A DNA stretch of 64,000 nt. It comes from Bathymodiolus thermophilus thioautotrophic gill symbiont. GTDB taxonomy: Bacteria; Pseudomonadota; Gammaproteobacteria; PS1; Pseudothioglobaceae. Below are positions 14,623-47,587 of the stretch, in pieces. Position 1 is the stretch's first letter, and every line of letters begins with the position of its first letter. The position numbers were made by a program, and so were the translations under genes. The stretch covers positions 992,001 through 1,056,000 of the forward strand of contig NZ_CP024634.1 of assembly GCF_003711265.1 (NCBI RefSeq), in the 5' to 3' direction. The notes beneath the pieces were generated by a model. The model searched no databases. It saw only the letters and a list, made by a program, of their open reading frames with translations, and was not told the origin of the DNA.

Positions 14623-17600
14623 ATGCAAGTAAAGACACAAAAACAAGTTATGGCATTACAAGATAAAATGCAAAAATTTTCTGATAAACTTAACAAAGAA
14701 GTCGTTGCTATTAGCAAAAGCGTTCAACACATTCAAGTTAAAGCAGGTACGGTTTATCAATTAAACACCAAAGATTTTGACACTAAAAAGGTAAATCTAA
14801 TTGCCAAAAAAATCGGTGATGACTTGGAAGTAACACTAGAAGAAGGTGTTATTATTTTTGACAACTATTTTGATATTTGTGCAACTGATTTGTCCTGCTT
14901 AGTTTCTCTCCCCGCCGAAAACGGCGGACTTTATCACATTGTTGCTGATATATTCTTCACTTTAGAAGACGGTACCCAAGTTGTGTATTTTTATAACGAG
15001 CAATCTATTGTTTCTACAGAATCTAGTGTAATTAATACAGAGGGCAGCCAAAGTTTTGAAGACATTATCTATTCAAATATAGAAATCGTAGCCGCAGCTT
15101 CAGTGGCAGTTATTGTTATTGCTAGCAGTGGCGGTGGCGGCGGTGGTGGCAGTAGTAGCAATAATGACTTTTTTGTTACACTTATGGCAGGTCCAGTATT
15201 GGACAACACAGGCATCAAAATTGCTGCTTATGACAAAGATGGAAAGTTGATAGCCGAAGGCGAAAAACAAGCAGACGGTCGTTATAAGTTCGATAAGAGC
15301 AAAATAACTGGCATTGTTATTTTTAAAGCATACGACACCAATAATGCTGTTGACTATCAAGATGAAAAAGGCAATAAAATGGATTTAGACATTGCCTTGT
15401 TAGCAGTGACTAACACAGAAGGTAAAAGTGTAGCGGCAATCACCGTGTTAACCACAATAGCCGCAAAACAAGCAGGTATTACAGACGATGGCAAGGCTGA
15501 GGCTGGTGGCGTTACAGTTTCTTCAACTCCATTAACTGAAACAATAGTCAATGCAAAAAACGAAGGTGTTGGCAACGCATTTGGGGTTAATGACATTAGC
15601 AGTATCCCCAAAGCCATGATTGACAAAGACGGCAAAGCCACCCATAGTGCCGATAATTACGGTCAAGTTTTGGCGGCAGTTTCTGGTGTAAGTATGGTTA
15701 AAGATGTTGTTGAAAAATACGATACCATGAGTGAATGGGATACTGCAACACAAAACGACGGCACCTTTAAGGATGTGGTAAAACAAGAATTTGTTAATGG
15801 CGCTGCCAAAGTAGCGGCAAGCAACGATGAAATTGATGAGGTTCCTTTAAACGCAGTATTAACGGGCAATGGCAGTATTACAGCGCAAGTGCTTGTTACT
15901 ATTACTAGCAATAAAACAGGCATCGCAACCGATGACATTATCTTTACTTTTACATTTGATCAGGCGCTAACACATCTATCAGATTTTGCCATTAGCGACA
16001 TTCGTGTTACTGGTGGCATTGCAGCCAATTCATTTAAATCAGGCTCAACGACTACCATTTATCAATTAATCGTTACCCCAGATGCCAATACTGAAGGCGA
16101 CATAATAATAAGTGTTGATGCCAAACTGAGCAAATACGCTTCAGCAATAAACTTCATCCAAGCCTACGATGTTAAGGCCCCATCCGCTCCAGAAAATTTG
16201 GTATTAGCAACTAATGACGACACAGGTCTTAGCGATAGCGATAATATAACCAACAAAACCGCCGTAACTATTGTTGGTGAAGCAGAAGCAGGCTCAACAG
16301 TAGAATTGTTTAATGGCGATATTTCATTGGGCGAAAAAATCACTGTTGATAATAACGGAAATTTTAGCAAAACAATTATTTTAGCAGCAAATGTAACCAC
16401 AAATATTACCGCCAAAGCAACCGATGCCGTTGGCAATACAAGTCCAGTCTCTGACGCTTTGTCAGTTAGCGTAGACACTATAGTTCCCACTTTCACCAGT
16501 GGCAGTACAGGGGTAGGTGTTATTAATCAAATTAACCCTGTTTATAACGCAGAAGTTGACGGCGGCGATGCCAGTGTTAAATACACACTTAGAGCGGCTG
16601 ATTTACTTAAATTTAACATTGATGCAGATAGCGGTATCGTTACTTACAAAACTGCTCTAACTGCAGCTACCCTCACAGCAGATAACATCGTCATCACTGC
16701 TACCGATATTGCAGGCAATACCAGTATCCGCAATGTAGCAATCACAGTAGTGGATCAGCCTTTGGTTGTTATTGCCAGTAATAAGCCCAATGGTACCAAT
16801 GGTGCATTTGAACTAACTTTTACCTTTACTGAAAAAGTAAACGGTTTTGAACTGAGCGACATTGTCTTTACAGGTGCAGGCACGAATGATGTAAACATTA
16901 GCAAAGGCACTTTAACAACCGCCTCTTCAGGGGCTAATCAAAACAAAGTTTTCACCTTAATGGTCACCCCAGAAACTACACTCACAGATGGCGACATTAC
17001 CGTTGATGTCGCTGCCAATGCAGCAACAAGTGCAACTTCTAATAAAACCAATATTGCCGCCACACAATTTATCCAAAAGTTTGACGAGACCAAACCAGCG
17101 ACACCAAATGCTATATTAACAGACAGCGGTAGTAATGCAACAGACAATACTACCAATGATGCCACCATCAGTGCGCCTACTAATACAGAAACCAATGCAA
17201 CGGTAGAATACAAAATTAACGAGGGTGCTTGGCGTGAAACCTATACCAAGCCCACAACGGATGGCGCTTACGCAGTAAAAGTAAGACAAACAGATGGAGC
17301 GGGCAATATCTCCGACGAACAAACCTTTTTTTTCACACTAGACACAAGTGTTGCAATCCTCACAGCAGCACTGGAAACCGACACAGGTGGCTCTAACTCT
17401 GACAACCTTACCAAAGACGCAACCGTCAATATTACAAATCTTGAAACAGGTGCCACTTGGGAATACAGCAAAGACAACGGCACAAACTGGACAACAGGCA
17501 CAGGCACCAGTTTTGAACTTGCAGAAAACACCGTTTATGCTGAAAACGCTATTCAAGTCAGACAAACTGACAAAGCAGGTAATGTTAGTGACATTACCCA

Positions 17601-20600
17601 AATGGCTGCCATTACCATAGACAATATTGCCCCAATTATCAACACTGCCAGCATTAATTCTGGCACTACTTTGTTGGTATTAACCTTAAGCAAAGGGGTA
17701 ATTGGTACACCAGATAAGGGCGACTTTGTCGTTAAGAATGGCGCTACTGATTCATTGACTGATAACATTGTAACCGCTGTTACTGTGAGCGGTAACACCA
17801 TAACCTTGACCTTGACCACTGCTGTGGATCAAAGAGACGGTGTTACAATTGCCTATACTCAAAACACAGACGCTAACAAACAACTTAAAGGCAGTGCGGG
17901 TAATTCGGTTGTCAGCGATCTGCTAACGACAACAACAGTGGTGGACATTTCCGCCCCAATTGTTACTGGTGCTGTCAACCCAAGTGCCACCGAAGTGATT
18001 AAAGCAGGTGATACACTGTCAATTGAATTGACTTTAAGTGAAGAAGCAACACTGGCCAATGGAGAAATAGCAACCATTGTCTTATTGATTGATAAAATCG
18101 ACAGTTCAGGCGTTATGGAAGTAATAGCCACTGCTACTGGCAATGGCTCAAGTAGCAATAAACTTACCTTTACCACTCTAGCCTTACCAAATGGCTTGGC
18201 GGACAGCGATGGTGTTGAGATTAAAGCCAGTTCACTCGTCTTTTTAGCAACAGTTTTTAAAGACGCTAGTGGCAACGATGTTAGCAAGATTTTCAGCAAG
18301 GTGAATGCCGTTAGTAATGAGCAAGTGGATAGCGTGGCTCCAACTTTCAATAGTGCTGTAGTGGTTGATGTTGTCGTTAATACAGCTATTGCAGTAGTCA
18401 TTTATGATGCTCAAGCCACTGATAATGGTGGTGTTAATGACGCTGGTATTACTTATAGCATAAAAGATGCGGCTAACAATAAATTTGATATTAACGCAAC
18501 AACAGGTTGGTTAACTTATCAGGAAATACAAACAACAGAGCATAGCGACACAGTTACTATTGTTGCCATTGATACTGCAGGTAACAGCAATGAGCTTGTT
18601 GTTACAGTTCGTGTTAAAAATTTCTTTACCAGTATTGATTGGGTTGGTGCAACTGCTGATAACTATATCAATAGCATTGAAAAAGCTGGTGCCACTTTGT
18701 CAGGAACTATTGTTACGGTAGGGGATCCAGTAACAATCGACAGTATTCAAATTGTTAAAAATGACAACACCACAATTGATATTGAAAAAGCCAACATAAT
18801 TTCAACAGGCGAAAATTGGAAATTAAATAGTATTGCAAAAGCCCAGATTGCTAATTTAGCCGATGGCATCTACACCGCTAAAGTAAGTTTAAAAGACAGC
18901 AACAATCAAGTAGTCGTTTTAGACAGCAAACAAGTTACCTACGACACCATAATAAACCTTGATATTAATACAGTTGCAACTAACGACATTATTAATTTTG
19001 ATAAAAAAAATGTAGGATTTGATGTTACAGGTAGTTCTGATGCCATTGGTCAAACCGTTACCGTCAGCTGGGTTGGTACAGAGAAAACTGCAATTGTTCA
19101 AGCTAATGGTGTATGGTCTGTTGCTTATGTAGCAGCCGACATTACTTACAATGCCGATAGTAGCGTTATCAGTGCTACAGTAAATGATGCTGCTGGCAAC
19201 GAGAAAACAGTCGAACATACGGTGCATATTGACATTACTTCAGCGACACTTAGTATCAACACAGTTGCCACGAATGACGAAATTGATGCCGTCGAGAAAA
19301 ATGCAGGTATTGTTATTAATGGCAAATCTGACGCTCTTGGTCAAACTGTTACCGTTAGTTGGGGTGGCAATGATAAAACAGCCATCGTTGATGACATTAC
19401 AGGGGTTTGGTATGTTACTTATGCAGCCGCCGATGTTCCCGCTGATGCTATTAGTAGCATTATCAGCGCCAAAGTCAGTGATGCTATTGGCAATCCAGAG
19501 ACCATTAGCACACGCACAGTGCTTATTGATACCATGGCCACTGAGCAACCAATCATTACTATTAAAGATGGCGAAGATGCGTATGTTAACAGTATTGAAA
19601 CAGGGGTAAATCTGCAAATATCTGCCGTGGGTATGGCGGTAGGAGATGAAATTCAACTTAAAAAAAGCAGTGATGTCAGTTTGGGCGATGCATATATCGT
19701 TACTGCTGACGACATTAGCAACGGCAAGGCAACCATTAGGATTGCTAAAGCAGATTTAGGTTCAACTGGCGATGTAACAGAAATTACTGCCACCATTACC
19801 GATATCATGGGTTATACCAGCGTGCCAAGCAGTGCAATAAGTATCACTCTTAATACCCTCATTCCATCAACTCTAACCATAACCCTCACAACCGATACTG
19901 GCTCATCCGATGGCATTACCCAGAATGGCGATATGACGATTAGCGGCGTAGAAGAAGGTAATAGTTGGCACTATAGTACTGATAGTGGTAGCAATTGGCA
20001 TATAGGCGGAGGTAGTAGTTTTGTGCTAAATGTAGGTACTTATGCCGTAGATAGTATTTGGGTAAAACAAACCGATGTGGCTGGCAATGCTTCAAGCATT
20101 AGTAAAAACAGTCAAGCCATTACTGTGGATACCATTGCACCCACTCTCACCATTAATATAGATGATACTAATTTAACAACAGGAGAGAGTACCACGCTAA
20201 AATTTAATTTTAGTGAAATACCGGCAGTAGACAGTTTTGATATTAGTGATATTACTGCCTCTAATGGCAGTATCAGTCAATTAGTTGTTGATAGCGAAGA
20301 TGCTTCGCGCTACACAGCCTTATTTACCCCAACTGAAAATATTGATGAAAGCACTAATGTCATTAGTGTTGGCACCGATTGGACAGATATAGCGGGCAAT
20401 GCACCAACAGCCATCACAAATTCTGTTAATTATCAAATTAATACGAATGTGGATGCCGACACCATGGTACCAAACTTACAAAGCCCACCAGTCTTAACTG
20501 TTACTGGCGGTGGCAATAGTATCGGCGATACAATTGTACTTACATTCGTCTTTAATGAAATGGTTAAAGGACTTGAAACAGGTACTACCAACAATATTTT

Positions 20601-23600
20601 TACAGTGCAAAGTACTCCTGTTGAGGCCACTTGGTCGGGAAGTAATAACACCGCAACAAGAAGCCTCACTTACACTATTGCAGCAGGTCAAAATGGCACA
20701 GTCATTATTGACAAAGCCGCCCTAAAAACGGCTCTGATTGCTGGTATTACTGATACCTCAAACAATGCTTTTGATAGCACTGCCACGATTGCCGGTATTG
20801 ACATTAGCGCATTGGTTAGTATTGATGGCACTGTTCCAGAGATAAGTATCACTCATGATGTTACTGAAACACTTAAAGCGGGCAATGTCATTACCTATAC
20901 TTTTACCTTTGATAATGCAGTTACAGGCTTTGATAAGGATGATATTGTTGTAGACAATGGCACAAAAGGGGCATTTGTCAAAACTGGCGACACAACTTAC
21001 ACCTTAGTTGTTACGCCAACGGCAAACTTTACTGGCAACCTAAATATTGAAATAGCCGCCAATGCAGCAACAGATAGTGCTGGTAACAGTAGTGCTGCAA
21101 TAACCTCAACACCTGTAATAGTCAACACAATACGACCCAGTGTAAGCATTAGCATAGGTAATACTAATTTAACATCTGCTGAAAACACTACTTTAAGCTT
21201 TAACTTCAGCGAAGCACCAGCAGTAAACAGTTTTACTTCTGACGATATTATCGCACCCAATGGTACTATCACCAATTTAACCGTTGATAGTGCTGATGCT
21301 AAACATTACACAGCAACCTTTACTGCGGCACAAGGCGTAGCAGACGATAGCAATTATATTAGTGTTGGCACCAATTGGACCAACATAGCAGGTAATGCGC
21401 CAGAAGCGCTTACCCAATCAATCAACTACAAAATAACCGATACGCATGCACCAACGATTGTTATTACAGACGATGTGGCTGGAGATATTGGTATTGGTGC
21501 CAATATCACTTACACTTTTACCTTTAGTGAAGCCGTTACTGGTTTTGACCAGGCCGATATCAGCGTCAGTAATGGCACAAAAGGGCAATTTACCAAAGTC
21601 AGTAATGCAGTTTACAGTTTAGTTGTTACGCAAACAGGTGTTGACAATATAACCGTTAATGTCGCCACTGGTGCAGCCAAAGACGGTGCCAACATTGACA
21701 GTATTGCCGCACAATCCGTGCAAACAGCAGACTTACAAAGACCAACTGTGGCCATCAGTATGAATAACACTGATTTTCTGCGAACTGGCAATACTGCAAC
21801 CATCAGTTTTAACTTTAGTGAAATAGTTAAGGATTTTGACCTAAGCGATATCACCACCGACAAAGGCACCATCACTAATTTGGTTGTTGATAGTACCGAC
21901 GCTAGCCTTTATACTGCCACCTATACGGCAACACAAAATATAGAGTCTAAGTATATTGACTTTACCATTACCGCTACAGGTTGGACAGATATGGCTGGCA
22001 ATACACCTGAGGCCGTCGTGCAAGTATCGGTAACCTCCAGTTTTCAAAGCCCACCAATCTTGGCGATTCAACAAGGCGAAGACCGCTATCTTAATGCTAC
22101 AGAAGCCACTATTGGAATAGAAGTTACCTTGCAACAAGATGCCCAGGTAGGCGATAGCGTTCAGTTTAAAACAAAGTCAGGTGCAGTGGGAGAACTGTAT
22201 GTTATTCAACAAAGTGATATAGATAATAAGAAGTTTTCACAACTTATCAATAGAGTAGATTTAGGTGAAAACGGCACGGAAGCAGAAATTACTGCCGTGA
22301 TAAAAGACCAATTGGGTAACACCAGTCACGACAGTAACGCACTATTGATCATCATAGACGAAGCATCGCCATTACTATTAAGCAGCAGTTGGCATATTAA
22401 CACACCGCCAATAGGACAAAACTCCTTCATAGTGGATGACATTATTGAACTCAGTGTTACCACTAGTGAGCCATTAAAATTTGGCGACACCACTGGTTCT
22501 CAGCTTATTATGGGCGGCAAAATATTCGTTCTTGATGTTGCTAAATCCAGTGAGAACAGCAATAAAAAGTTGGTTTTTACCCATCAAGTTAGTGTCGATG
22601 AAACAATGGCACAACAAGAAGCCATTATCAAAACCGACCAAATCACGCTCAACGGTGTTACCGATATGGTGGGCAATGCGCTGGCCTTACCTTCCTTGGT
22701 TATTGCCACAAGCCTTTATCAGAATGCAATTTTTCATCAATCAACCACCAACCCTTTCACCAATATCGACACCAGTACCAACACCAACGCCAACGCCACC
22801 CCAACCTTCGCCGACATTGACCAAGACGGTGATTTAGACCTTATTATCGGCTCAGCAGCAGGCACACTGAGTTATTACACCAATGTTAACAACAATTTTG
22901 TCAAAGCAACCGACAGCCCTTTCCAACATATCCGCCATACTAGTGCCGCCCCTACTTTTGTTGACCTTGACCAAGATGGCAATTTAGATTTAATTGTTGG
23001 TGATTTAGAAGGCAAACTCCATTTTTATAAAAACATTCAATACGGCAACACAGCCACCTTTAATTTGGTAGCAGCACAATTTAATCCGTTGAGTGATATC
23101 GATATTGGTAGCAACGCCACCCCAACCTTTGCTGACATTGACCAAGATGGCGATTTAGACCTTATTGTTGGCAGTGCCACAGGCACTTTGACCTATTATC
23201 AAAGCAACAATAACAACTTTACTGAAACAAGCAACAATCCGTTCCAAAATATTAGCCACGCTTATTCAACCCCAACTTTTGTGGATGTTGACCAAGATGG
23301 CGATCTAGATTTGGTTGTTGGCTATGTTAATGGTGCACTGCATTATTACCAAAACAACGACACTGTATTTAGTGTCAAAACTACCAGTAACGCACTGTTT
23401 TCCAGTATTAAAGTCGGCAACAACGCCGCCCCTACTTTTGCTGATATAGACAACAACGGCACCTTGGATTTAATCCTTGGCGCTCAAGATGGCTCATTAC
23501 AATACCAGCAACGCCAACAGTCTGAAGTGATTGATGCTCAAGCACCGAGTTTAAGCATCGTGGTTACCCAAACCACATTGCTTAAAGGTCAGAGTAGCCA

Positions 23601-26600
23601 GATAATACTGAACTTTAGTGAAGCGGTAAAAGGCTTTACACTTGATAACCTAAGTGCCGAGAATGCCACCCTGAGTAACCTAAAACTCAATCCCAATCGT
23701 CACAGCACCCAGCCATTTTCTTACCTTGCCACGCTCACTCCAAACGACAACATCAACCAAGCCAGCAACCGCATTAGCGTTAACAGCAACTGGCAAGATT
23801 TGAATGGCAATACACCGGCTAGTAATTTTAGTTCAAACATTTATCAAGTGTTTACCGACACCAATTCTACACAAATCCAAGGCTGGACAAGTAACACCCC
23901 ATCTAGTACACAAATAGCCTTTACTCAGGGTGATACCATTACCATTAGTTTAAGCCTTAGCGCCAATGCTAAGGTCAATAACAGCCAAGCTTATATCGTT
24001 ATTGATGAAAAACGCTTTGACATTGACAAAGACGATTTTAACGCTGCAAGCGACAAAACCGTCCTCAATTTTAACTACACCGTACAAGCCAACGATACTT
24101 TGAACTTACCCGACTTTGTGGTTAAGAGAGATCAAGTATTTTTAAACGGCGTAACCGACACTTATGACTATAACCTTGATTTGTCATCAATGCCAGAACA
24201 AGTACTATTAGGAGAGCGAGCGTTGTTCAAGTTAGAAAGTTCGTTGGACATTACACAACCTAAAGATGATAGAATAAACAATGCATTTTATGCTGATGTC
24301 AATGCTGATGGTTATATGGATGTTATTTCAACAGACGCTTACAATCATGATGGTGGTGGCAATTACGCCAGTTTGAGTTTTTATTTTTTCCAAGGTTCTG
24401 CCACAGGTTTGACTTTTAGAGAAGGGGCAGGCACGCCTTTTTATCAGTGGGATAAGGGAGGTCAAATTGATGCGGAGGCTGGTGGCTCTCTACGCACAGC
24501 CGCTTTTGCCGATGTTGATAATGATGGCGATTTAGATATGCTTGTTACTCAACGCAAACTTTCTTACAATATAATAAAATTTTTCGACAACCAAGACGGT
24601 ATTTATATCATGCAAGGGTCGCATTCACTCGCTAACATTAGCGCCACCAGTCTAATTATCCCCACTTTTGCTGATATTGATGGCGATGGCGATGCTGATT
24701 TGGTGGTAGGCGATAGCGAAGGTACCTTAAAATATTATACTAACCAGCAAAGCGTGTTTACCCAACAAACAGGTGTTAATAATCCTTTTACCATGGATGT
24801 GGGTACACACGCCGCACCGACCTTTGCTGATATTGATAACGATGGTGATCTAGATCTACTGATTGGCAGTAGCTCAGGCTGGCATTATTATCAAAATATC
24901 AACGGTGTATGGATAGCGCAAACAGGTGTTAATAACCCTTTTAGTGGCGTAGCAGGTGGTATTCCTAACTTTGTGGATGTTGATTTTGATGGCAATAAGG
25001 ATTTGGCCATTACCGCACTAAAACACACTTATTATTATCGCAATACTCACCGCACGGTTATCGACACCCAAGCCCCAGAAACCCCAAGTATTAATATCCA
25101 TGACATCTCGCTTTCCGCTGGCGACAGCACTAAAGTTGAATTCCATTTTGCAGAAAAAGTTTTAAACTTCACATTGGATGACATTACTGCTGAAAACGCC
25201 ACCCTGAGTAACTTTAGACAAGACACCAGCCTAGGTACTTTTGTATGGACGGCAACCCTAGCACCAGACTCAGGCGTTAACGATAGCACTAACACCCTGA
25301 GCATAGGCAGAGATTGGCATGATAGCGCTGGCAACAAACCCAGTCAAATTACCACCTCAAGCAATTATATGGTCAGCAGCCAAGTCGCAGCAAACATCAG
25401 CAGTAATGTTAGCGACTGGGTTTTCAGCAGTCCACCAACAGGACAAGATTATTTTTCTATTGGCGACACTATGACGCTAACCATTAGCATGAGCAAAGCT
25501 GTGCAGGTAACTGATGGTAGTGCTTATCTTATGTTAGCCAACAGGCGTTTCAACATTGACAAAGCCGCTTTTGACCTTGCAAGTGACAAAACCAAGCTCA
25601 ACTTTACTTATACCGTGGTTGAGGGTGATTATTTAATCAGCAGTGATTTTGTTGTTAACAGTACCCATCTAACAGGGGTCAGCGATGTTGCAGGAGTAGC
25701 GGCTAATGACTTGAGCGCAGAGTTGGTTTTGTTGAGAAACAGCGATACTTTTGAGCGATCTCATGCTAGCATACCAGGCATTGAAAAAGGCACTTTCAGT
25801 ACAGTAAATTTTATAGATTTGAATAATGACGGCGCTGAAGAATTGGTTATTGGCCTAGACTTGGATAGTGGTTCTGATAGAAGTCTCTATTATAAGATCA
25901 CTCCAGATGGAGGAAGTAACAGTTTTGTAAAAATTACCGGGAACGCCGATCCATTTCGTGAGATTGACTTTGCTGGCGATGCTATTCTTGCATGGGCTTT
26001 TGCTGATATAAACAGGGATGGTTACTTAGACTTTTTGACAAGCAAAGGTTATTACATATATTCGGGAGACAAATTCTTATTGCAAACAGGCGTCAACGAT
26101 CCTTTTTCTCATCTTGATTTAAGCAAGAATCAAATGCATAATTTGGTGGATTTAGACAATGATGGTGATTTTGATCTTGTCGCTGCTGAAGATAATGGTA
26201 CTCTTTCTTATTATGAAAATAATAATGGTGTTTATGCACTAAAAACAGACCATGTGCTATCAGGAATAGATTTAGGGTCAGGTATTGAAATGAACTTTAG
26301 GGATTTAGATGGTGATGGCGATTTAGATTTAACATCAGGTAGCTTTTATGGAACAAATAACCGTGAAGCCATTAGTTATCGTGAAAATGTTGGCACGATT
26401 AACAACCCAATTTTTAGCCATCAACGCGGTGATAGTAATTTCTTTGATCATCTTGATAATAAAGGGCTTTATATCGGATCGCCTGGCTTTAGTGATATTA
26501 ATGGTGACGGCATATTAGATTTTGTAACCGCACAATACAGTAACTATGTGCAATACTACAAGGGTGTTACCAACCCCCTTAAAGTCAAAACCGTCCATTA

Positions 26601-29600
26601 TCAAGATATGGACGGTATTACTTCAATCGCCGCCAGTGATAAACTCATTGAGCATTTTCACTGGAACAGACTCAGTGCTGACAAAAAATATGTCAGCCTT
26701 AAGGATGCCACTATTACTAATTTTGATTTAAGCCATGACACCCTTGATGTTTCTGCTTTACTCTTACACTTGGAAAATGATAACGCCAAACAGGGTCATA
26801 TTAATATTCAAATCAATGGTGAAGACAGTGTTTTAAGTATTGATAATTTTGATATTACTTTGATAGGTGTTAATGCTAGCGTTGAAACACTTATTGAAAA
26901 TAAAGTGCTTCGCATCTCTAGTGACAAAACAGACACAATTAACACCAACCCTTTCGCCAATATCGACACCAACACCAACGCCAACGCCACCCCAACCTTC
27001 GCCGACATTGACCAAGACGGTGATTTAGACCTTATTATCGGCTCAGCAGCAGGCACACTGAGTTATTACACCAATGTTAACAACAATTTTGTCAAAGCAA
27101 CCGACAGCCCTTTCCAACATATCCGCCATACTAGTGCCGCCCCTACTTTTGTTGACCTTGACCAAGATGGCAATTTAGATTTAATTGTTGGTGATTTAGA
27201 AGGCAAACTCCATTTTTATAAAAACATTCAATACGGCAACACAGCCACCTTTAATTTGGTAGCAGCACAATTTAATCCGTTGAGTGATATCGATATTGGT
27301 AGCAACGCCACCCCAACCTTTGCTGACATTGACCAAGATGGCGATTTAGACCTTATTGTTGGCAGTGCCACAGGCACTTTGACCTATTATCAAAGCAACA
27401 ATAACAACTTTACTGAAACAAGCAACAATCCGTTCCAAAATATTAGCCACGCTTATTCAACCCCAACTTTTGTGGATGTTGACCAAGATGGCGATCTAGA
27501 TTTGGTTGTTGGCTATGTTAATGGTGCACTGCATTATTACCAAAACAACGACACTGTATTTAGTGTCAAAACTACCAGTAACGCACTGTTTTCCAGTATT
27601 AAAGTCGGCAACAACGCCGCCCCTACTTTTGCTGATATAGACAACAACGGCACCTTGGATTTAATCCTTGGCGCTCAAGATGGCTCATTACAATACCAGC
27701 AACGCCAACAGTCTGAAGTGATTGATGCTCAAGCACCGAGTTTAAGCATCGTGGTTACCCAAACCACATTGCTTAAAGGTCAGAGTAGCCAGATAATACT
27801 GAACTTTAGTGAAGCGGTAAAAGGCTTTACACTTGATAACCTAAGTGCCGAGAATGCCACCCTGAGTAACCTAAAACTCAATCCCAATCGTCACAGCACC
27901 CAGCCATTTTCTTACCTTGCCACGCTCACTCCAAACGACAACATCAACCAAGCCAGCAACCGCATTAGCGTTAACAGCAACTGGCAAGATTTGAATGGCA
28001 ATACACCGGCTAGTAATTTTAGTTCAAACATTTATCAAGTGTTTACCGACACCAATTCTACACAAATCCAAGGCTGGACAAGTAACACCCCATCTAGTAC
28101 ACAAATAGCCTTTACTCAGGGTGATACCATTACCATTAGTTTAAGCCTTAGCGCCAATGCTAAGGTCAATAACAGCCAAGCTTATATCGTTATTGATGAA
28201 AAACGCTTTGACATTGACAAAGACGATTTTAACGCTGCAAGCGACAAAACCGTCCTCAATTTTAACTACACCGTACAAGCCAACGATACTTTGAACTTAC
28301 CCGACTTTGTGGTTAAGAGAGATCAAGTATTTTTAAACGGCGTAACCGACACTTATGACTATAACCTTGATTTGTCATCAATGCCAGAACAAGTACTATT
28401 AGGAGAGCGAGCGTTGTTCAAGTTAGAAAGTTCGTTGGACATTACACAACCTAAAGATGATAGAATAAACAATGCATTTTATGCTGATGTCAATGCTGAT
28501 GGTTATATGGATGTTATTTCAACAGACGCTTACAATCATGATGGTGGTGGCAATTACGCCAGTTTGAGTTTTTATTTTTTCCAAGGTTCTGCCACAGGTT
28601 TGACTTTTAGAGAAGGGGCAGGCACGCCTTTTTATCAGTGGGATAAGGGAGGTCAAATTGATGCGGAGGCTGGTGGCTCTCTACGCACAGCCGCTTTTGC
28701 CGATGTTGATAATGATGGCGATTTAGATATGCTTGTTACTCAACGCAAACTTTCTTACAATATAATAAAATTTTTCGACAACCAAGACGGTATTTATATC
28801 ATGCAAGGGTCGCATTCACTCGCTAACATTAGCGCCACCAGTCTAATTATCCCCACTTTTGCTGATATTGATGGCGATGGCGATGCTGATTTGGTGGTAG
28901 GCGATAGCGAAGGTACCTTAAAATATTATACTAACCAGCAAAGCGTGTTTACCCAACAAACAGGTGTTAATAATCCTTTTACCATGGATGTGGGTACACA
29001 CGCCGCACCGACCTTTGCTGATATTGATAACGATGGTGATCTAGATCTACTGATTGGCAGTAGCTCAGGCTGGCATTATTATCAAAATATCAACGGTGTA
29101 TGGATAGCGCAAACAGGTGTTAATAACCCTTTTAGTGGCGTAGCAGGTGGTATTCCTAACTTTGTGGATGTTGATTTTGATGGCAATAAGGATTTGGCCA
29201 TTACCGCACTAAAACACACTTATTATTATCGCAATACTCACCGCACGGTTATCGACACCCAAGCCCCAGAAACCCCAAGTATTAATATCCATGACATCTC
29301 GCTTTCCGCTGGCGACAGCACTAAAGTTGAATTCCATTTTGCAGAAAAAGTTTTAAACTTCACATTGGATGACATTACTGCTGAAAACGCCACCCTGAGT
29401 AACTTTAGACAAGACACCAGCCTAGGTACTTTTGTATGGACGGCAACCCTAGCACCAGACTCAGGCGTTAACGATAGCACTAACACCCTGAGCATAGGCA
29501 GAGATTGGCATGATAGCGCTGGCAACAAACCCAGTCAAATTACCACCTCAAGCAATTATATGGTCAGCAGCCAAGTCGCAGCAAACATCAGCAGTAATGT

Positions 29601-31113
29601 TAGCGACTGGGTTTTCAGCAGTCCACCAACAGGACAAGATTATTTTTCTATTGGCGACACTATGACGCTAACCATTAGCATGAGCAAAGCTGTGCAGGTA
29701 ACTGATGGTAGTGCTTATCTTATGTTAGCCAACAGGCGTTTCAACATTGACAAAGCCGCTTTTGACCTTGCAAGTGACAAAACCAAGCTCAACTTTACTT
29801 ATACCGTGGTTGAGGGTGATTATTTAATCAGCAGTGATTTTGTTGTTAACAGTACCCATCTAACAGGGGTCAGCGATGTTGCAGGAGTAGCGGCTAATGA
29901 CTTGAGCGCAGAGTTGGTTTTGTTGAGAAACAGCGATACTTTTGAGCGATCTCATGCTAGCATACCAGGCATTGAAAAAGGCACTTTCAGTACAGTAAAT
30001 TTTATAGATTTGAATAATGACGGCGCTGAAGAATTGGTTATTGGCCTAGACTTGGATAGTGGTTCTGATAGAAGTCTCTATTATAAGATCACTCCAGATG
30101 GAGGAAGTAACAGTTTTGTAAAAATTACCGGGAACGCCGATCCATTTCGTGAGATTGACTTTGCTGGCGATGCTATTCTTGCATGGGCTTTTGCTGATAT
30201 AAACAGGGATGGTTACTTAGACTTTTTGACAAGCAAAGGTTATTACATATATTCGGGAGACAAATTCTTATTGCAAACAGGAGTCAACGATCCTTTTTCT
30301 CATCTTGATTTAAGCAAGAATCAAATGCATAATTTGGTGGATTTAGACAATGATGGTGATTTTGATCTTGTCGCTGCTGAAGATAATGGTACTCTTTCTT
30401 ATTATGAAAATAATAATGGTGTTTATGCACTAAAAACAGACCATGTGCTATCAGGAATAGATTTAGGGTCAGGTATTGAAATGAACTTTAGGGATTTAGA
30501 TGGTGATGGCGATTTAGATTTAACATCAGGTAGCTTTTATGGAACAAATAACCGTGAAGCCATTAGTTATCGTGAAAATGTTGGCACGATTAACAACCCA
30601 ATTTTTAGCCATCAACGCGGTGATAGTAATTTCTTTGATCATCTTGATAATAAAGGGCTTTATATCGGATCGCCTGGCTTTAGTGATATTAATGGTGACG
30701 GCATATTAGATTTTGTAACCGCACAATATAGTAACTATGTGCAATACTACAAGGGTGTTACCAACCCCCTTAAAGTCAAAACCGTCCATTATCAAGATAT
30801 GGACGGTATTACTTCAATCGCCGCCAGTGATAAACTCATTGAGCATTTTCACTGGAACAGACTCAGTGCTGACAAAAAATATGTCAGCCTTAAGGATGCC
30901 ACTATTACTAATTTTGATTTAAGCCATGACACCCTTGATGTTTCTGCTTTACTCTTACACTTGGAAAATGATAACGCCAAACAGGGTCATATTAATATTC
31001 AAATCAATGGCGAAGACAGTGTTTTAAGTATTGATAATTTTGATATTACTTTGATAGGTGTTAATGATATTAATTACAACATGCTGATTGATAATGGCAT
31101 AGTTATTATTTAA
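14623..31113 (+). CDS. Giant Bap/LapA-like adhesin, predicted type I secretion substrate
   Basis: A 5496-residue surface protein. The start follows a strong AGGAG. No signal peptide is present. The N-terminus (about 35-110) resembles the retention 'prefix' of BapA/LapA adhesins. A hydrophobic alanine/valine/isoleucine stretch (about 153-166) and a hinge of seven glycines (from about 169) follow. Residues about 180-2700 are many Ig/cadherin-like repeats, with recurrent forms such as TFTFSEAVTGFD and SVGTNWTDIAGN. The rest is two near-identical blocks (2709-4084 and 4107-5481). Each holds 15 FG-GAP/VCBS-type motifs (F-DIDQDGDLDLI-G) likely to bind calcium, Ig-like domains and a T1SS target-like end (ITNFDLSHDTLDVSALL). 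The protein ends with the usual short hydrophobic tail, DNGIVII. No T1SS transporter genes are in the window. Confidence 0.85.
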   Translation: MQVKTQKQVMALQDKMQKFSDKLNKEVVAISKSVQHIQVKAGTVYQLNTKDFDTKKVNLIAKKIGDDLEVTLEEGVIIFDNYFDICATDLSCLVSLPAENGGLYHIVADIFFTLEDGTQVVYFYNEQSIVSTESSVINTEGSQSFEDIIYSNIEIVAAASVAVIVIASSGGGGGGGSSSNNDFFVTLMAGPVLDNTGIKIAAYDKDGKLIAEGEKQADGRYKFDKSKITGIVIFKAYDTNNAVDYQDEKGNKMDLDIALLAVTNTEGKSVAAITVLTTIAAKQAGITDDGKAEAGGVTVSSTPLTETIVNAKNEGVGNAFGVNDISSIPKAMIDKDGKATHSADNYGQVLAAVSGVSMVKDVVEKYDTMSEWDTATQNDGTFKDVVKQEFVNGAAKVAASNDEIDEVPLNAVLTGNGSITAQVLVTITSNKTGIATDDIIFTFTFDQALTHLSDFAISDIRVTGGIAANSFKSGSTTTIYQLIVTPDANTEGDIIISVDAKLSKYASAINFIQAYDVKAPSAPENLVLATNDDTGLSDSDNITNKTAVTIVGEAEAGSTVELFNGDISLGEKITVDNNGNFSKTIILAANVTTNITAKATDAVGNTSPVSDALSVSVDTIVPTFTSGSTGVGVINQINPVYNAEVDGGDASVKYTLRAADLLKFNIDADSGIVTYKTALTAATLTADNIVITATDIAGNTSIRNVAITVVDQPLVVIASNKPNGTNGAFELTFTFTEKVNGFELSDIVFTGAGTNDVNISKGTLTTASSGANQNKVFTLMVTPETTLTDGDITVDVAANAATSATSNKTNIAATQFIQKFDETKPATPNAILTDSGSNATDNTTNDATISAPTNTETNATVEYKINEGAWRETYTKPTTDGAYAVKVRQTDGAGNISDEQTFFFTLDTSVAILTAALETDTGGSNSDNLTKDATVNITNLETGATWEYSKDNGTNWTTGTGTSFELAENTVYAENAIQVRQTDKAGNVSDITQMAAITIDNIAPIINTASINSGTTLLVLTLSKGVIGTPDKGDFVVKNGATDSLTDNIVTAVTVSGNTITLTLTTAVDQRDGVTIAYTQNTDANKQLKGSAGNSVVSDLLTTTTVVDISAPIVTGAVNPSATEVIKAGDTLSIELTLSEEATLANGEIATIVLLIDKIDSSGVMEVIATATGNGSSSNKLTFTTLALPNGLADSDGVEIKASSLVFLATVFKDASGNDVSKIFSKVNAVSNEQVDSVAPTFNSAVVVDVVVNTAIAVVIYDAQATDNGGVNDAGITYSIKDAANNKFDINATTGWLTYQEIQTTEHSDTVTIVAIDTAGNSNELVVTVRVKNFFTSIDWVGATADNYINSIEKAGATLSGTIVTVGDPVTIDSIQIVKNDNTTIDIEKANIISTGENWKLNSIAKAQIANLADGIYTAKVSLKDSNNQVVVLDSKQVTYDTIINLDINTVATNDIINFDKKNVGFDVTGSSDAIGQTVTVSWVGTEKTAIVQANGVWSVAYVAADITYNADSSVISATVNDAAGNEKTVEHTVHIDITSATLSINTVATNDEIDAVEKNAGIVINGKSDALGQTVTVSWGGNDKTAIVDDITGVWYVTYAAADVPADAISSIISAKVSDAIGNPETISTRTVLIDTMATEQPIITIKDGEDAYVNSIETGVNLQISAVGMAVGDEIQLKKSSDVSLGDAYIVTADDISNGKATIRIAKADLGSTGDVTEITATITDIMGYTSVPSSAISITLNTLIPSTLTITLTTDTGSSDGITQNGDMTISGVEEGNSWHYSTDSGSNWHIGGGSSFVLNVGTYAVDSIWVKQTDVAGNASSISKNSQAITVDTIAPTLTINIDDTNLTTGESTTLKFNFSEIPAVDSFDISDITASNGSISQLVVDSEDASRYTALFTPTENIDESTNVISVGTDWTDIAGNAPTAITNSVNYQINTNVDADTMVPNLQSPPVLTVTGGGNSIGDTIVLTFVFNEMVKGLETGTTNNIFTVQSTPVEATWSGSNNTATRSLTYTIAAGQNGTVIIDKAALKTALIAGITDTSNNAFDSTATIAGIDISALVSIDGTVPEISITHDVTETLKAGNVITYTFTFDNAVTGFDKDDIVVDNGTKGAFVKTGDTTYTLVVTPTANFTGNLNIEIAANAATDSAGNSSAAITSTPVIVNTIRPSVSISIGNTNLTSAENTTLSFNFSEAPAVNSFTSDDIIAPNGTITNLTVDSADAKHYTATFTAAQGVADDSNYISVGTNWTNIAGNAPEALTQSINYKITDTHAPTIVITDDVAGDIGIGANITYTFTFSEAVTGFDQADISVSNGTKGQFTKVSNAVYSLVVTQTGVDNITVNVATGAAKDGANIDSIAAQSVQTADLQRPTVAISMNNTDFLRTGNTATISFNFSEIVKDFDLSDITTDKGTITNLVVDSTDASLYTATYTATQNIESKYIDFTITATGWTDMAGNTPEAVVQVSVTSSFQSPPILAIQQGEDRYLNATEATIGIEVTLQQDAQVGDSVQFKTKSGAVGELYVIQQSDIDNKKFSQLINRVDLGENGTEAEITAVIKDQLGNTSHDSNALLIIIDEASPLLLSSSWHINTPPIGQNSFIVDDIIELSVTTSEPLKFGDTTGSQLIMGGKIFVLDVAKSSENSNKKLVFTHQVSVDETMAQQEAIIKTDQITLNGVTDMVGNALALPSLVIATSLYQNAIFHQSTTNPFTNIDTSTNTNANATPTFADIDQDGDLDLIIGSAAGTLSYYTNVNNNFVKATDSPFQHIRHTSAAPTFVDLDQDGNLDLIVGDLEGKLHFYKNIQYGNTATFNLVAAQFNPLSDIDIGSNATPTFADIDQDGDLDLIVGSATGTLTYYQSNNNNFTETSNNPFQNISHAYSTPTFVDVDQDGDLDLVVGYVNGALHYYQNNDTVFSVKTTSNALFSSIKVGNNAAPTFADIDNNGTLDLILGAQDGSLQYQQRQQSEVIDAQAPSLSIVVTQTTLLKGQSSQIILNFSEAVKGFTLDNLSAENATLSNLKLNPNRHSTQPFSYLATLTPNDNINQASNRISVNSNWQDLNGNTPASNFSSNIYQVFTDTNSTQIQGWTSNTPSSTQIAFTQGDTITISLSLSANAKVNNSQAYIVIDEKRFDIDKDDFNAASDKTVLNFNYTVQANDTLNLPDFVVKRDQVFLNGVTDTYDYNLDLSSMPEQVLLGERALFKLESSLDITQPKDDRINNAFYADVNADGYMDVISTDAYNHDGGGNYASLSFYFFQGSATGLTFREGAGTPFYQWDKGGQIDAEAGGSLRTAAFADVDNDGDLDMLVTQRKLSYNIIKFFDNQDGIYIMQGSHSLANISATSLIIPTFADIDGDGDADLVVGDSEGTLKYYTNQQSVFTQQTGVNNPFTMDVGTHAAPTFADIDNDGDLDLLIGSSSGWHYYQNINGVWIAQTGVNNPFSGVAGGIPNFVDVDFDGNKDLAITALKHTYYYRNTHRTVIDTQAPETPSINIHDISLSAGDSTKVEFHFAEKVLNFTLDDITAENATLSNFRQDTSLGTFVWTATLAPDSGVNDSTNTLSIGRDWHDSAGNKPSQITTSSNYMVSSQVAANISSNVSDWVFSSPPTGQDYFSIGDTMTLTISMSKAVQVTDGSAYLMLANRRFNIDKAAFDLASDKTKLNFTYTVVEGDYLISSDFVVNSTHLTGVSDVAGVAANDLSAELVLLRNSDTFERSHASIPGIEKGTFSTVNFIDLNNDGAEELVIGLDLDSGSDRSLYYKITPDGGSNSFVKITGNADPFREIDFAGDAILAWAFADINRDGYLDFLTSKGYYIYSGDKFLLQTGVNDPFSHLDLSKNQMHNLVDLDNDGDFDLVAAEDNGTLSYYENNNGVYALKTDHVLSGIDLGSGIEMNFRDLDGDGDLDLTSGSFYGTNNREAISYRENVGTINNPIFSHQRGDSNFFDHLDNKGLYIGSPGFSDINGDGILDFVTAQYSNYVQYYKGVTNPLKVKTVHYQDMDGITSIAASDKLIEHFHWNRLSADKKYVSLKDATITNFDLSHDTLDVSALLLHLENDNAKQGHINIQINGEDSVLSIDNFDITLIGVNASVETLIENKVLRISSDKTDTINTNPFANIDTNTNANATPTFADIDQDGDLDLIIGSAAGTLSYYTNVNNNFVKATDSPFQHIRHTSAAPTFVDLDQDGNLDLIVGDLEGKLHFYKNIQYGNTATFNLVAAQFNPLSDIDIGSNATPTFADIDQDGDLDLIVGSATGTLTYYQSNNNNFTETSNNPFQNISHAYSTPTFVDVDQDGDLDLVVGYVNGALHYYQNNDTVFSVKTTSNALFSSIKVGNNAAPTFADIDNNGTLDLILGAQDGSLQYQQRQQSEVIDAQAPSLSIVVTQTTLLKGQSSQIILNFSEAVKGFTLDNLSAENATLSNLKLNPNRHSTQPFSYLATLTPNDNINQASNRISVNSNWQDLNGNTPASNFSSNIYQVFTDTNSTQIQGWTSNTPSSTQIAFTQGDTITISLSLSANAKVNNSQAYIVIDEKRFDIDKDDFNAASDKTVLNFNYTVQANDTLNLPDFVVKRDQVFLNGVTDTYDYNLDLSSMPEQVLLGERALFKLESSLDITQPKDDRINNAFYADVNADGYMDVISTDAYNHDGGGNYASLSFYFFQGSATGLTFREGAGTPFYQWDKGGQIDAEAGGSLRTAAFADVDNDGDLDMLVTQRKLSYNIIKFFDNQDGIYIMQGSHSLANISATSLIIPTFADIDGDGDADLVVGDSEGTLKYYTNQQSVFTQQTGVNNPFTMDVGTHAAPTFADIDNDGDLDLLIGSSSGWHYYQNINGVWIAQTGVNNPFSGVAGGIPNFVDVDFDGNKDLAITALKHTYYYRNTHRTVIDTQAPETPSINIHDISLSAGDSTKVEFHFAEKVLNFTLDDITAENATLSNFRQDTSLGTFVWTATLAPDSGVNDSTNTLSIGRDWHDSAGNKPSQITTSSNYMVSSQVAANISSNVSDWVFSSPPTGQDYFSIGDTMTLTISMSKAVQVTDGSAYLMLANRRFNIDKAAFDLASDKTKLNFTYTVVEGDYLISSDFVVNSTHLTGVSDVAGVAANDLSAELVLLRNSDTFERSHASIPGIEKGTFSTVNFIDLNNDGAEELVIGLDLDSGSDRSLYYKITPDGGSNSFVKITGNADPFREIDFAGDAILAWAFADINRDGYLDFLTSKGYYIYSGDKFLLQTGVNDPFSHLDLSKNQMHNLVDLDNDGDFDLVAAEDNGTLSYYENNNGVYALKTDHVLSGIDLGSGIEMNFRDLDGDGDLDLTSGSFYGTNNREAISYRENVGTINNPIFSHQRGDSNFFDHLDNKGLYIGSPGFSDINGDGILDFVTAQYSNYVQYYKGVTNPLKVKTVHYQDMDGITSIAASDKLIEHFHWNRLSADKKYVSLKDATITNFDLSHDTLDVSALLLHLENDNAKQGHINIQINGEDSVLSIDNFDITLIGVNDINYNMLIDNGIVII
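22747..26875 (+). repeat. Long tandem repeat within adhesin gene, copy 1
   Basis: Nearly identical to 26944-31066 at an offset of 4191 bp (4197 bp at the extreme left, where copy 1 has 6 extra bases). Three substitutions were found by eye in the right part: 26091 C versus 30282 A, 26538 C versus 30729 T, and 26820 T versus 31011 C. The unit is a whole number of codons. Confidence 0.95.
26944..31066 (+). repeat. Long tandem repeat within adhesin gene, copy 2
   Basis: Second copy of the unit starting at 22747. It ends where the reading changes from a shared GVN to the unique C-terminal DINYNMLIDNGIVII; copy 1 continues with ASVETLIENKVLRIS at the same point. A unique spacer of about 68 bp separates the copies. 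Confidence 0.95.
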
Positions 31114-31253: not shown

Positions 31254-31294
31254 TAGAAGCTACACGAAAGGATTTTTTTTTGCTTTTTATATAA

Positions 31295-31455
31295 GAGACC
31301 TTTGCATAAATATGAATAATCATCAAAAATCCACTTTTTACCCACTTGGTAATTTTTTAAATCCAGCCTTAGCCCTGCCAGGACAAGGTTTAAGAAAATT
31401 ACCAAGTGGGCAAAAATTGAATTTTGCTAACCATCCATATTTATGCAAAGGTCTC
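31295..31455. mobile_element. MITE-like palindromic element, copy 4 (intact)
   Basis: 161 bp with perfect 20-bp terminal inverted repeats (GAGACCTTTGCATAAATATG and its complement). A second inner inverted repeat, CCCACTTGGTAATTTT / AAAATTACCAAGTGGG, lets the element fold as one long hairpin. Flanks TATAA and AATAA agree at 4 of 5 bases, suggesting a target duplication. It carries no transposase. The 100-codon open frame across it is not considered real. Confidence 0.88.
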
Positions 31456-31516
31456 AATAAAATTTTTAGAAAAAGTGGCAGAACCAACAGTGTAAATTCA
31501 TTGTAAAATAGCGCTC

Positions 31517-32413
31517 ATGGATTTAAAGACTGTATTACCTGCCAATTGGATACGCATTAAGAGATTAAGCGTATCTTACCAAGATAAAATTAGAGTTGGC
31601 ATTACGCTATGCTTGGTGGTTTATTTGGCTTATGTTTGTGCACAGTTGGCATTGGGTTTGTTTATTAATGCACAAAGCCAAGTTGTAGCAGCGATTGATA
31701 TAAAAACACCTCGGTCAAATACTAACAATATGAGAGCGTACAATAATTTGTTTGGCCAGTTTCAGCGTGTTAAAATTCGTCAGGATTATAAGAAAGTTAA
31801 ACTCACTCCCCTTAATTTAACTTTGGTAGGGACGGTTTTTAAGAGGCGAAATGCTTTGGCTATTATTAAAAATGGTAGAAAAAAAGCCAAAATTTACCGA
31901 CAAGGTGACAAGATTATTGCTGGTGTATTGCTGAAAGATATTGCTAAAGATTATGTGGTGATTGAAAGAGGTGAGAAGTTAGAAAAAATATTAATTAAGT
32001 TTAAGTATGTTGATCCTAACGCTAATTCTCGAAGCAAGGTAGTTGAATTAGATGAATTTAAACAAAATAAATTTTCTTCAACCGCATTGTCGGTAAAACA
32101 AAAAAACAAGTTAGGTGGCTATTTAAAAGAAATTTCCAAAAATCCAAGAGGGCTATTGTCTTTAATTAGGATTGAACCAAACTTTAGTGATGGTAAACTT
32201 ATCGGCTTTAGAATAAATTCTAGCAAAGAAAAGCACCTATTTAAAGAACTAGGCTTTAGAGAGCATGATGTGATAACTCGTATTAATGACACGATGCTTG
32301 ACAGTTTATCTGCTTCTTTTAAAATAGTCGGACTCTTGAAAAAAACAAAAAACTTTGATATTTATCTTGACCGAGAAGGCGAGCAACATATTATTACTAT
32401 TGACTTAAACTAA
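31517..32413 (+). CDS. gspC: T2SS inner-membrane protein GspC
   Basis: GspC links the inner-membrane platform to the secretin GspD and takes part in substrate recognition. The 298-residue protein has a cytoplasmic N-terminus, one membrane segment (about 28-50), a linker, the homology region (about 95-160, LNLTLVGTVFKRRNALAII...GDKI) that binds GspD N0, and a C-terminal PDZ domain (about 205-298, with ELGFREHDVITRINDTMLD). It starts the second T2SS gene group, about 60 nt after a MITE copy, and is followed after 12 nt by gspD. Confidence 0.9.
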   Translation: MDLKTVLPANWIRIKRLSVSYQDKIRVGITLCLVVYLAYVCAQLALGLFINAQSQVVAAIDIKTPRSNTNNMRAYNNLFGQFQRVKIRQDYKKVKLTPLNLTLVGTVFKRRNALAIIKNGRKKAKIYRQGDKIIAGVLLKDIAKDYVVIERGEKLEKILIKFKYVDPNANSRSKVVELDEFKQNKFSSTALSVKQKNKLGGYLKEISKNPRGLLSLIRIEPNFSDGKLIGFRINSSKEKHLFKELGFREHDVITRINDTMLDSLSASFKIVGLLKKTKNFDIYLDREGEQHIITIDLN

Positions 32414-32425
32414 CATTTCTTATTT

Positions 32426-34378
32426 ATGAAACAACACATTAAAATTATTCTATTGTCGACATTGTTATTCACTTCATCTGCCCAAGCTTTAGTGCTTAAT
32501 TTGAAAAACACCGATATTCGCACGCTTATCAATACTGTTTCTCAAGCGACAGGCAAAAATTTCATTATTGACCCTAGAGTTAAAGCCAAGGTGAATGTGG
32601 TGAGCAATCAAAATGTTGACGATGCTAAACTTTATCAATTTTTTGCTTCTATTTTGCAAGTGCATGGATATGTGATTATTCCTGGTGATGATTTTGACAA
32701 AATATTACCTAAAAATGCCACTAAAAACACTTCACCTACCCTACTTGCTGATGACTTAATTGTTAGTGCTGTACTTGCAGTCAAAAATGTGCCAGCAAAA
32801 GAGTTGATTTCTATTTTGCGCCCGTTGGTGTCTCAATATGGCTATTTAACTGCCTATCATCCTTCTAATAGCATTGTAATGACAGACACCAATGCCAGCA
32901 TTAAGCGTATTAAAGATATGATTGAGACACTGGACAGGCAAGTGGATGAGGACTATGAAATTATCACCTTAAAACACACAAGCGCACAAGAAGTGGCAAA
33001 TATTATCAAGTCATTATTAGCAAAAAAATCTGGTAACACGCTGGTTATTAGCGTCAACACACAGACCAACCAAATTATTATTGGCGGTAGCAAAAGTAAG
33101 CGCCTTAAGGCACGCTTTTTAATTGCTGAACTTGATAAAGACAACGGAGAAGAGGGCGGCACTTCTGTGATTTACTTAAAACATGCAAATGCAAAAGATA
33201 TTTTGCCGATATTGCAAAGTGTCGTCAATAGTAAATCTAGTGGCAAGAATAAAACTACTGCCACTAATATTCAGGCGGATGAAGCGACCAATGCTATTAT
33301 CGCCACTGCACCACCAGCGATAATTTTAAAGCTTAAAAAAATTATTGGCAAACTTGATATTGAGCGTGCACAAGTGCTGATTGAAGTGGTAATTGCTGAA
33401 ATTCATTCTTCTGAATCAAATGAACTGGGTATTGGTTTACTAGGTTTTGGTTCAAAAATTGGTGTTATGGCAACCGATTTTAATCAACAAGTAACAGCAC
33501 TTTTAGGTAGCATTAGTAGTGGCACACCTTCTTTGAAGGCAGGTGCGAACTATGTTCTTGGTAATTTTAATAAAGAGGGGGGTAATTATACCAGTGGACT
33601 GGGTGCAATTATTAGCGCACTGGACAGCATGGGTAATGCCGATATTCTTTCCACTCCTTCTATTGTTACCTTGGACAACGAGGAAGCTGAAATTGTCGTG
33701 GGTAATGAAGTGCCGTTTATCACCAACACACAATTGAGTAGTAGCAACTCTAATCCTTTTCAAAATTATGAGCGTAAAAATGTTGGCTTAACACTCAAGG
33801 TTAAACCCCAAATTAATGAAGGTGGTGGTATTAAACTCGTTATAGAGCAAGAAGTGTCGAATGTTTTGCCTTCAGCCAGTGCCGTTGATGTTATTACTTC
33901 TAAGCGTAAAATTAAAACCACAGTTATGGTTAAGAATAATAGATTATTGGTATTGGGTGGTATGATTGACAATACCATTAGAAACACACAGCAAAAAGTG
34001 CCTTTATTGGGTGACATTCCAATTTTAGGGCGTTTGTTTCGCTTTAACAGAAGTTCCAGAGAGAAGCGCCATCTAATATTATTTATCAGACCTACCATCT
34101 TGTCCGAGGACAATGTGGGTAACATTAGTAAGCAAAAATACAACTATATTACAGCCAAAAGCCTCTTGGATGATACCGAAGGATTGTTCCCTGATTACAG
34201 TAAAACTGGCAACCCCCAAGCGAAGCCTAAAGCAACAGAAACGCTTATTAAAATACCAGTATCAAAGGCACCTGTAAAAACAAACACATCAACTACATTT
34301 TTCGGATCGGTAGCATCCAAATCAAATGAAGATGATTTTTATGAAGATGATTTTTATGCGAGTGATGATGAGGATTAA
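32426..34378 (+). CDS. gspD: T2SS outer-membrane secretin GspD
   Basis: Forms the multimeric outer-membrane channel. The 650-residue protein has a signal peptide ending SSAQA (about residue 22), an N0 domain (LNLKNTDIRTLINTVSQATGKNFIIDP), three KH-like N domains (about 110-310) and a secretin domain (about 320-570) with the signature VPLLGDIPILGRLFR. The C-terminal tail (about 580-650) is acidic and could contact a pilotin, but no gspS-like gene is visible. Length and domain order fit the family. Confidence 0.96.
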   Translation: MKQHIKIILLSTLLFTSSAQALVLNLKNTDIRTLINTVSQATGKNFIIDPRVKAKVNVVSNQNVDDAKLYQFFASILQVHGYVIIPGDDFDKILPKNATKNTSPTLLADDLIVSAVLAVKNVPAKELISILRPLVSQYGYLTAYHPSNSIVMTDTNASIKRIKDMIETLDRQVDEDYEIITLKHTSAQEVANIIKSLLAKKSGNTLVISVNTQTNQIIIGGSKSKRLKARFLIAELDKDNGEEGGTSVIYLKHANAKDILPILQSVVNSKSSGKNKTTATNIQADEATNAIIATAPPAIILKLKKIIGKLDIERAQVLIEVVIAEIHSSESNELGIGLLGFGSKIGVMATDFNQQVTALLGSISSGTPSLKAGANYVLGNFNKEGGNYTSGLGAIISALDSMGNADILSTPSIVTLDNEEAEIVVGNEVPFITNTQLSSSNSNPFQNYERKNVGLTLKVKPQINEGGGIKLVIEQEVSNVLPSASAVDVITSKRKIKTTVMVKNNRLLVLGGMIDNTIRNTQQKVPLLGDIPILGRLFRFNRSSREKRHLILFIRPTILSEDNVGNISKQKYNYITAKSLLDDTEGLFPDYSKTGNPQAKPKATETLIKIPVSKAPVKTNTSTTFFGSVASKSNEDDFYEDDFYASDDED

Positions 34379-34452
34379 TGAAAAATTGCCATTAAGGCAA
34401 CTTGACAAGCATGGCAATATTATTAACATACCCTTAAAGACTCGTTATTAAA

Positions 34453-35904: not shown

Positions 35905-35906
35905 AT

Positions 35907-41111: not shown

Positions 41112-41116
41112 TTAAA

Positions 41117-41277
41117 GAGACTTTTGTATAAATATGGATGATTAGCAAAATTCAATTTTTTCCCACTTGGTGATTTTCTTAAACCTTGTCCTAGCAGGGC
41201 TAAGGCTGGGTTTAAAAAATTACCAAGTGGGTGAAAAGTGGATTCTTGATGATTATTTATATTTATGCAAAGGTCTC
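41117..41277. mobile_element. MITE-like palindromic element, copy 5
   Basis: 161 bp. The left end GAGACTTTTGTATAAATATG and right end CATATTTATGCAAAGGTCTC type are both present. The interior is in the opposite orientation to the copy at 31295 (GATTAGCAAAATTC on the left). Flanked on both sides by TTAAA (41112-41116 and 41278-41282), a 5-bp target duplication. Confidence 0.88.
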
Positions 41278-41365
41278 TTAAAGTGTTATTTTTTTTGTTC
41301 ACTCGAAATTTTTAGCTTTTTTCGTTTATAATCTACCCCTTTTTGAGTTATTAATAAAATAAATT

Positions 41366-47277: not shown

Positions 47278-47296
47278 TGCCATTTTTAAACAAATA

Positions 47297-47457: not shown

Positions 47458-47587
47458 AAATAATCATCCACAAGTTGACAGTAAGTGGGTTTTGAAAAAT
47501 GGTATTAATGTTGGCATTTTATCGTGTAGATAAAAAAATTGAACAGATAGTAGTATCATATTCAACTAAAGTGGAGGTGTAAGGATA

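Follow-up and report, generated by a model that had tools for sequence, protein, structure and literature searches.

A near-identical 4.1-kb tandem duplication that includes the terminal domain of a giant adhesin-like protein in a Bathymodiolus thermophilus symbiont

The closest described precedent for a giant bacterial adhesin with repeats that are uniform in DNA is MpAFP, the ice-binding adhesin of Marinomonas primoryensis, whose Region II is described as about 120 repeats of a 104-residue Ig-like domain that are identical at the DNA level (PMC4083281). For the symbiont of Bathymodiolus thermophilus itself, a published account reports 129 attachment-related proteins detected, amounting to 23.9% of the proteome in gill tissue and presented there as an exceptionally large set (PMC6976577); the gene described here would fit the attachment-related class as that account outlines it. 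Our literature search found no paper on FG-GAP in Bathymodiolus symbionts.

We analysed a stretch of 64,000 nucleotides, referred to as the window, from a symbiont genome that consists of one contig of 2,832,685 bp. A single large gene in the window carries two copies of a long unit, and its parts are as follows.

14623..31113, + strand: giant adhesin-like gene, 5,496 aa, with a single terminal stop
14623..15084, + strand: N-terminal leader of 154 aa, 77% identical over 154 aa to that of another large protein encoded elsewhere in the genome
15085..22745, + strand: 5' part outside the duplication, with Ig-like Big_12 and Big_13 domains and Ca_tandemer repeats
22746..26875, + strand: copy 1 of the unit, 4,130 bp, with its ungapped core at 22777-26875
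22746..22776, + strand: left edge of copy 1, with 6 extra bases and a substitution at 22759 when compared with copy 2
26569..26916, + strand: internal copy of the terminal domain, its last 14 residues unlike the native end
26876..26942, + strand: junction piece of 67 bp, in frame, encoding an alternative domain end and a short linker
26943..31066, + strand: copy 2 of the unit, 4,124 bp, with its ungapped core at 26968-31066
30760..31113, + strand: terminal domain with native end and stop codon; the related genomes G003 and G005 (locus C9) end alike

Alignment of positions 22777-26875 with positions 26968-31066, at an offset of 4191, extended without gaps over 4,099 bp and contained 3 mismatches (0.07%), a match that lies far beyond chance. 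The mismatches are located at 26091/30282, 26538/30729 and 26820/31011, and all of them fall at the third codon position and are synonymous. These data confirmed the near-identical tandem duplication that the initial annotation had reported within a giant adhesin gene, and the base-by-base alignment returned, for the ungapped core, exactly the three differences that it had named. Across a 6-base gap the match continues leftward to 22746/26943 with one additional substitution, at 22759/26956 (Thr/Ala). The left edge is marked by an indel and a substitution, and after 26875/31066 at the right edge the two sequences are unrelated. The units had also been described as two in-frame units of 4191 bp. 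Their reading frame was borne out, but 4,191 bp proved to be the spacing of the copies, a period of 1,397 codons, and not the length of the unit. The copies do not abut: 67 bp (26876-26942) that belong to neither copy lie between them. The initial annotation was silent on this gap, on the presence of the terminal domain within the unit and on the position of the differences near the edges. A search of the 2.83-Mb genome with the unit gave five matches, namely the two copies and three short ones of 29-51 bp.

Repeats that exceed many reads are classic trouble spots for assembly, and the assembler might have written one unit twice or joined variants from two strains. We consider such an artefact unlikely, because the copies show base differences and are separated by a junction piece that occurs in neither of them, and because the subread N50 exceeds the length of the array (~8.3 kb). 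The report on EPR9N, a complete circular genome, 2,832,685 bp long, of the sulfur-oxidising B. thermophilus gill symbiont, gives PacBio coverage of 126x with a subread N50 of 12,539 bp, an assembly made as the consensus of three assemblers, and a library judged to be monoclonal (of the 263 subreads mapped to the CRISPR array, the 40 that spanned it agreed) (PMC9789115). Reads that span the entire ~8.3-kb array should exist, and the array may be a useful benchmark for assembly from long reads.

The propellers formed by FG-GAP blocks bind calcium. In the region 22744-26941, which comprises the unit, its edges and the junction, Pfam models identified FG-GAP_3 in 11 stretches, FG-GAP in 5 and Big_12 in 2. 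With a regular expression we counted 15 FG-GAP-type motifs per unit, in three groups of five, and 30 per protein, so that the proposed doubling of the FG-GAP/VCBS block from 15 to 30 motifs was reproduced. The 5' part contains seven further stretches of Big_12, and Pfam also detected three stretches of Big_13 and three of Ca_tandemer; many tandem Ig-like extender domains are thus present. RTX nonapeptide repeats (PF00353) were absent from both the unit and the 5' part in the Pfam scan, and PF00353 was likewise missing from the precomputed domains of P0001, a database entry with 9 member sequences.

The unit closes with a terminal domain of ~100 residues, for which a search of the genome yielded 2 matches, the two copies within this gene. 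Because the same type of domain is followed by a stop codon in G003 and in G005 (locus C9), we regard the unit's ending as a natural C-terminus; as copy 1 contains the domain as well, one terminal domain lies in the middle of the protein. The domain gave no relevant match to Pfam or NCBIfam models, only weak scores (e.g. acyl-carrier-like). TIGR03661, a model of the type I secretion C-terminal target, did not match the terminal domains of copy 1, copy 2, G003 or G005; of two other giant proteins to which it was applied, P0013 scored above the cut-off and P0024 did not. Profile-profile comparison of the terminal domain with P0002-type ends gave an E of 0.55, a poorer value than that of the best of 46 other protein windows, one of these comparison windows covering the internal terminal-domain copy. 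A fold model of the domain was poor (pLDDT 45), a region search among giant-size proteins recovered only P0001 from 170 candidates, and a PDB sequence search returned 0 matches for the first FG-GAP block and 0 for the last 452 aa. An hmmsearch with the terminal-domain alignment was discarded, as it produced many weak repeated matches that we ascribed to FG-GAP residues at the start of the alignment. We infer that the unit is built of stacked calcium-binding FG-GAP propeller blocks, Ig-like spacers and a terminal, probably secretion-related, domain.

The 14 divergent residues at the end of the internal domain are encoded, bar one base, by the 67-bp junction. The 67 bp had no close match elsewhere in their own genome or in the window. 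When they were compared as DNA with the native 3' end no similarity was observed, as 800 of 2,000 and 478 of 2,000 shuffles scored as well under two scorings. At the protein level, the copy-1 tail scored 9 and 7 against two reference ends and 0 against a third, the G005 end. Its agreement with terminal-domain ends was equalled by 41 of 3,953 windows from the same protein, by 34 of 5,000 shuffles and by 10 of 1,717 open DNA shuffles. The tail thus appears to bear a modest resemblance to terminal-domain ends at the protein level (P ~0.01). A search with the junction across 20 genomes, its own included, gave some match in 16 (E up to 1), and the best besides itself was 26 bp in G012 (E 1.9e-4); in a wider contig collection, from which the records of its own genome were possibly excluded, 0 stretches were recovered.

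We then compared the array with related genomes and proteins. Unit DNA matched in 5 of 58 genomes and unit protein in 4 of 12 genomes of the genus, the own genome being counted in both cases. Matches along most of the unit were found only in G005, at two loci (C1 and C9). Each of these has upstream sequence that resembles the 5' flank of copy 1 (62% identical across 233 and 232 aligned positions that span the left boundary) and then, among the matches listed, one collinear pass through the unit. At C9 the terminal domain and the subsequent stop are readable, while frameshifts make the end at C1 unreadable. Both loci are frameshifted and diverged, with about 37-69% protein identity depending on the stretch, and the frameshifts may be sequencing errors or decay. 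G003 shows the end part only, near a contig edge, with a native-type end before the stop, and G004 has short or weak matches only. At the three loci examined in the relatives, the DNA that follows the end of the adhesin resembles pieces of a transposase gene, which we take to be IS30-like. G005 gave 157 unit matches versus 9 in the symbiont's own genome, which suggests that it harbours a large family of FG-GAP-rich genes.

In the protein searches the best 120 matches were considered for each query. One unit used as query had no near-identical protein among these 120, and the best other protein was P0121, a partial gammaproteobacterial sequence 57% identical over 64%. Ends were inspected for P0001-P0033, with P0013 and P0024 examined further. 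Peptide patterns of the unit selected 30 stretches in the wider contig collection, none of which was confirmed. A single unit is accordingly the state seen outside EPR9N, and would be ancestral only if the G005 assembly is right. Since a single unit is present at each of the relative's loci, a second unit was likely gained in the lineage studied here, a moderate inference that draws on one such relative.

How the two copies came to be so alike was then considered. The published comparison of B. thermophilus symbiont genomes puts EPR9N at 98% ANI with the others, a difference of ~2% (PMC9789115). The copies are closer to each other than strains are (0.07% against ~2%), and therefore are either young or homogenised; the initial suggestion that the duplication is recent or kept uniform by gene conversion holds in this form, with the copies differing by 0.07% in the core. 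We think it rather probable that the complete 4.1-kb C-terminal module was duplicated in tandem within the symbiont lineage and that recombination between the two modules, in the form of gene conversion, has kept them alike since then. On this proposal the first module's original end would survive as the junction piece, having diverged before homogenisation or beyond its reach. Unequal recombination between the copies would give rise to proteins with one, two or three units, all of them native-ended.

Homogenisation is favoured by three signs, each of limited strength: the core differences are synonymous, they lie near an edge of the unit, and the edges break off sharply. That all three core differences should be synonymous has a probability of about 0.009 under uniform substitution to 0.02 under transition-weighted substitution. 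All three lie within the last 785 of 4,099 bp (19%), with a P of 0.007 for that end and of 0.014 for either end; their mutual closeness was not unusual (P 0.08), and clustering at the edge cannot be established from three substitutions. The edges themselves lean towards conversion, because a duplication that arose in one step should abut, and here an indel is found on the left and an alternative in-frame end on the right. The confinement of differences to the edges would thus weakly favour gene conversion rather than a simple new duplication.

The main rival is one very recent tandem duplication, with a 67-bp filler at the join and four substitutions and a 6-base slippage since then, which would explain the very high identity more simply. 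The 6-base gap lies within a short run of hexamer-like sequence that is prone to slippage, and the 67 bp have no DNA similarity to the native 3' end. However, such a filler would have to be in frame, open and like a terminal-domain end (P about 0.01), and the core differences, all synonymous and towards one end, also speak against it. We hold a fresh duplication to be possible but doubtful. That the second unit came by recombination from the gene of another strain or from a lost paralog seems to us very improbable. The junction piece is indeed sourceless in its own genome, and a related species has two loci of this gene type, but copies that differ by 0.07%, compared with ~2% among strains, would require a donor that was nearly clonal or was later homogenised. 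We retain duplication followed by gene conversion as the preferred reading of the array.

The protein is predicted from its sequence to be a surface or secreted adhesin, with putative export in the absence of a classical signal peptide (judged by eye) and possibly through type I secretion. The type I exporter ABC model TIGR03375 gave 23 matches, 4 of which spanned nearly the whole model, the best reaching 589.5 bits against a cut-off of 693.1; all 14 of 14 control genomes also matched, none over 693.1. LapG protease (PF06035) had 0 matches in the own genome and was found in 1 of 14 control genomes, and LapG-controlled release was rejected since the genome is without a LapG match. The second large protein with the similar leader (G000:C1:925783-931251) has a C-terminal part that matches RTX-type families, so that the leader is common to proteins with different ends.

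The surroundings of the gene in the window include the following.

2107-2880: type II secretion gene, N-like
31517-37112: type II secretion genes C, D, E and F, from 31517
3142-5799 and 5799-6398, - strand: M4 (thermolysin-type) peptidase domains and a fungalysin/thermolysin propeptide motif, in two touching frames
31294-31457, 47296-47459, 43277-43440, 41116-41279, 520-683 and 1994-2157: six in-register copies of a ~164-bp element

The adhesin gene is situated directly before type II secretion genes, and we saw no reason to class the adhesin as a type II substrate. On either side of the protease, the adhesin and a large gene that starts like a lipoprotein (by eye) stand genes of this system, which gives the impression that large genes were set into or next to the secretion cluster. 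The touching M4 frames read as if they were one split protease gene. The 164-bp element has halves that are mutually inverted repeats; five copies are 67-94% identical to the reference copy, more partial copies occur in the window, and the element looks like a miniature transposable element. One copy lies just 3' of the adhesin gene.

The initial annotation had further proposed phase or length variation. Length variation is mechanically possible, since the unit is in frame and the sole stop follows copy 2; on/off phase variation was rejected, because gain or loss of 4,191 bp keeps both the frame and the native end. It is this agreement of unit and frame that points to length variation rather than on/off switching, and the array would permit such variation of a surface protein, a route already known for proteins of this type. 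By arithmetic, one, two and three units give predicted lengths of 4,099, 5,496 and 6,893 aa, and each added FG-GAP block would lengthen the protein and enlarge its binding surface. More speculatively, the adhesin may grow by stacking complete modules that each bear a terminal domain, so that the end signal too is copied inward, with conversion keeping their interiors identical while the tails diverge; the adhesins of symbiont cells within a single mussel gill could then have one to three modules. If the number of units varies, it would be a simple genetic handle on adhesin reach or binding strength between mussels or sites. The locus is also well suited to finding out whether secretion suffers when an end domain is repeated inside the protein.

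Several known systems share part of this architecture. Like MpAFP, the present protein is a giant Gram-negative adhesin in which tandem stretches are identical, or nearly so, in DNA. MpAFP as described repeats one 104-residue extender domain ~120 times, whereas here a composite module with a period of 1,397 codons, terminal domain included, occurs twice. Adhesins of the LapA/BapA/MpAFP-type RTX group differ as well in having RTX repeats near the C-terminus, of which none were found here. The large FG-GAP-like repeat proteins P0002-P0021, mostly labelled as Ca. Thiodubiliella endoseptemdiera, resemble our protein in combining FG-GAP with Big_12, at 29-45% identity over 19-44% of the query region, but they have another N-terminus, PF00353 is listed in 19 of the 20, and their end is of the TIGR03661 type (P0013 being the only one tested). 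The G005 loci are closer than these proteins and have a single unit each. Like length-variable tandem-repeat surface proteins, the gene contains a tandem repeat that keeps the reading frame and has high DNA identity. Giant adhesins with near-identical blocks in tandem are already known, and it is the size of the unit and its inclusion of a terminal domain that look less usual.
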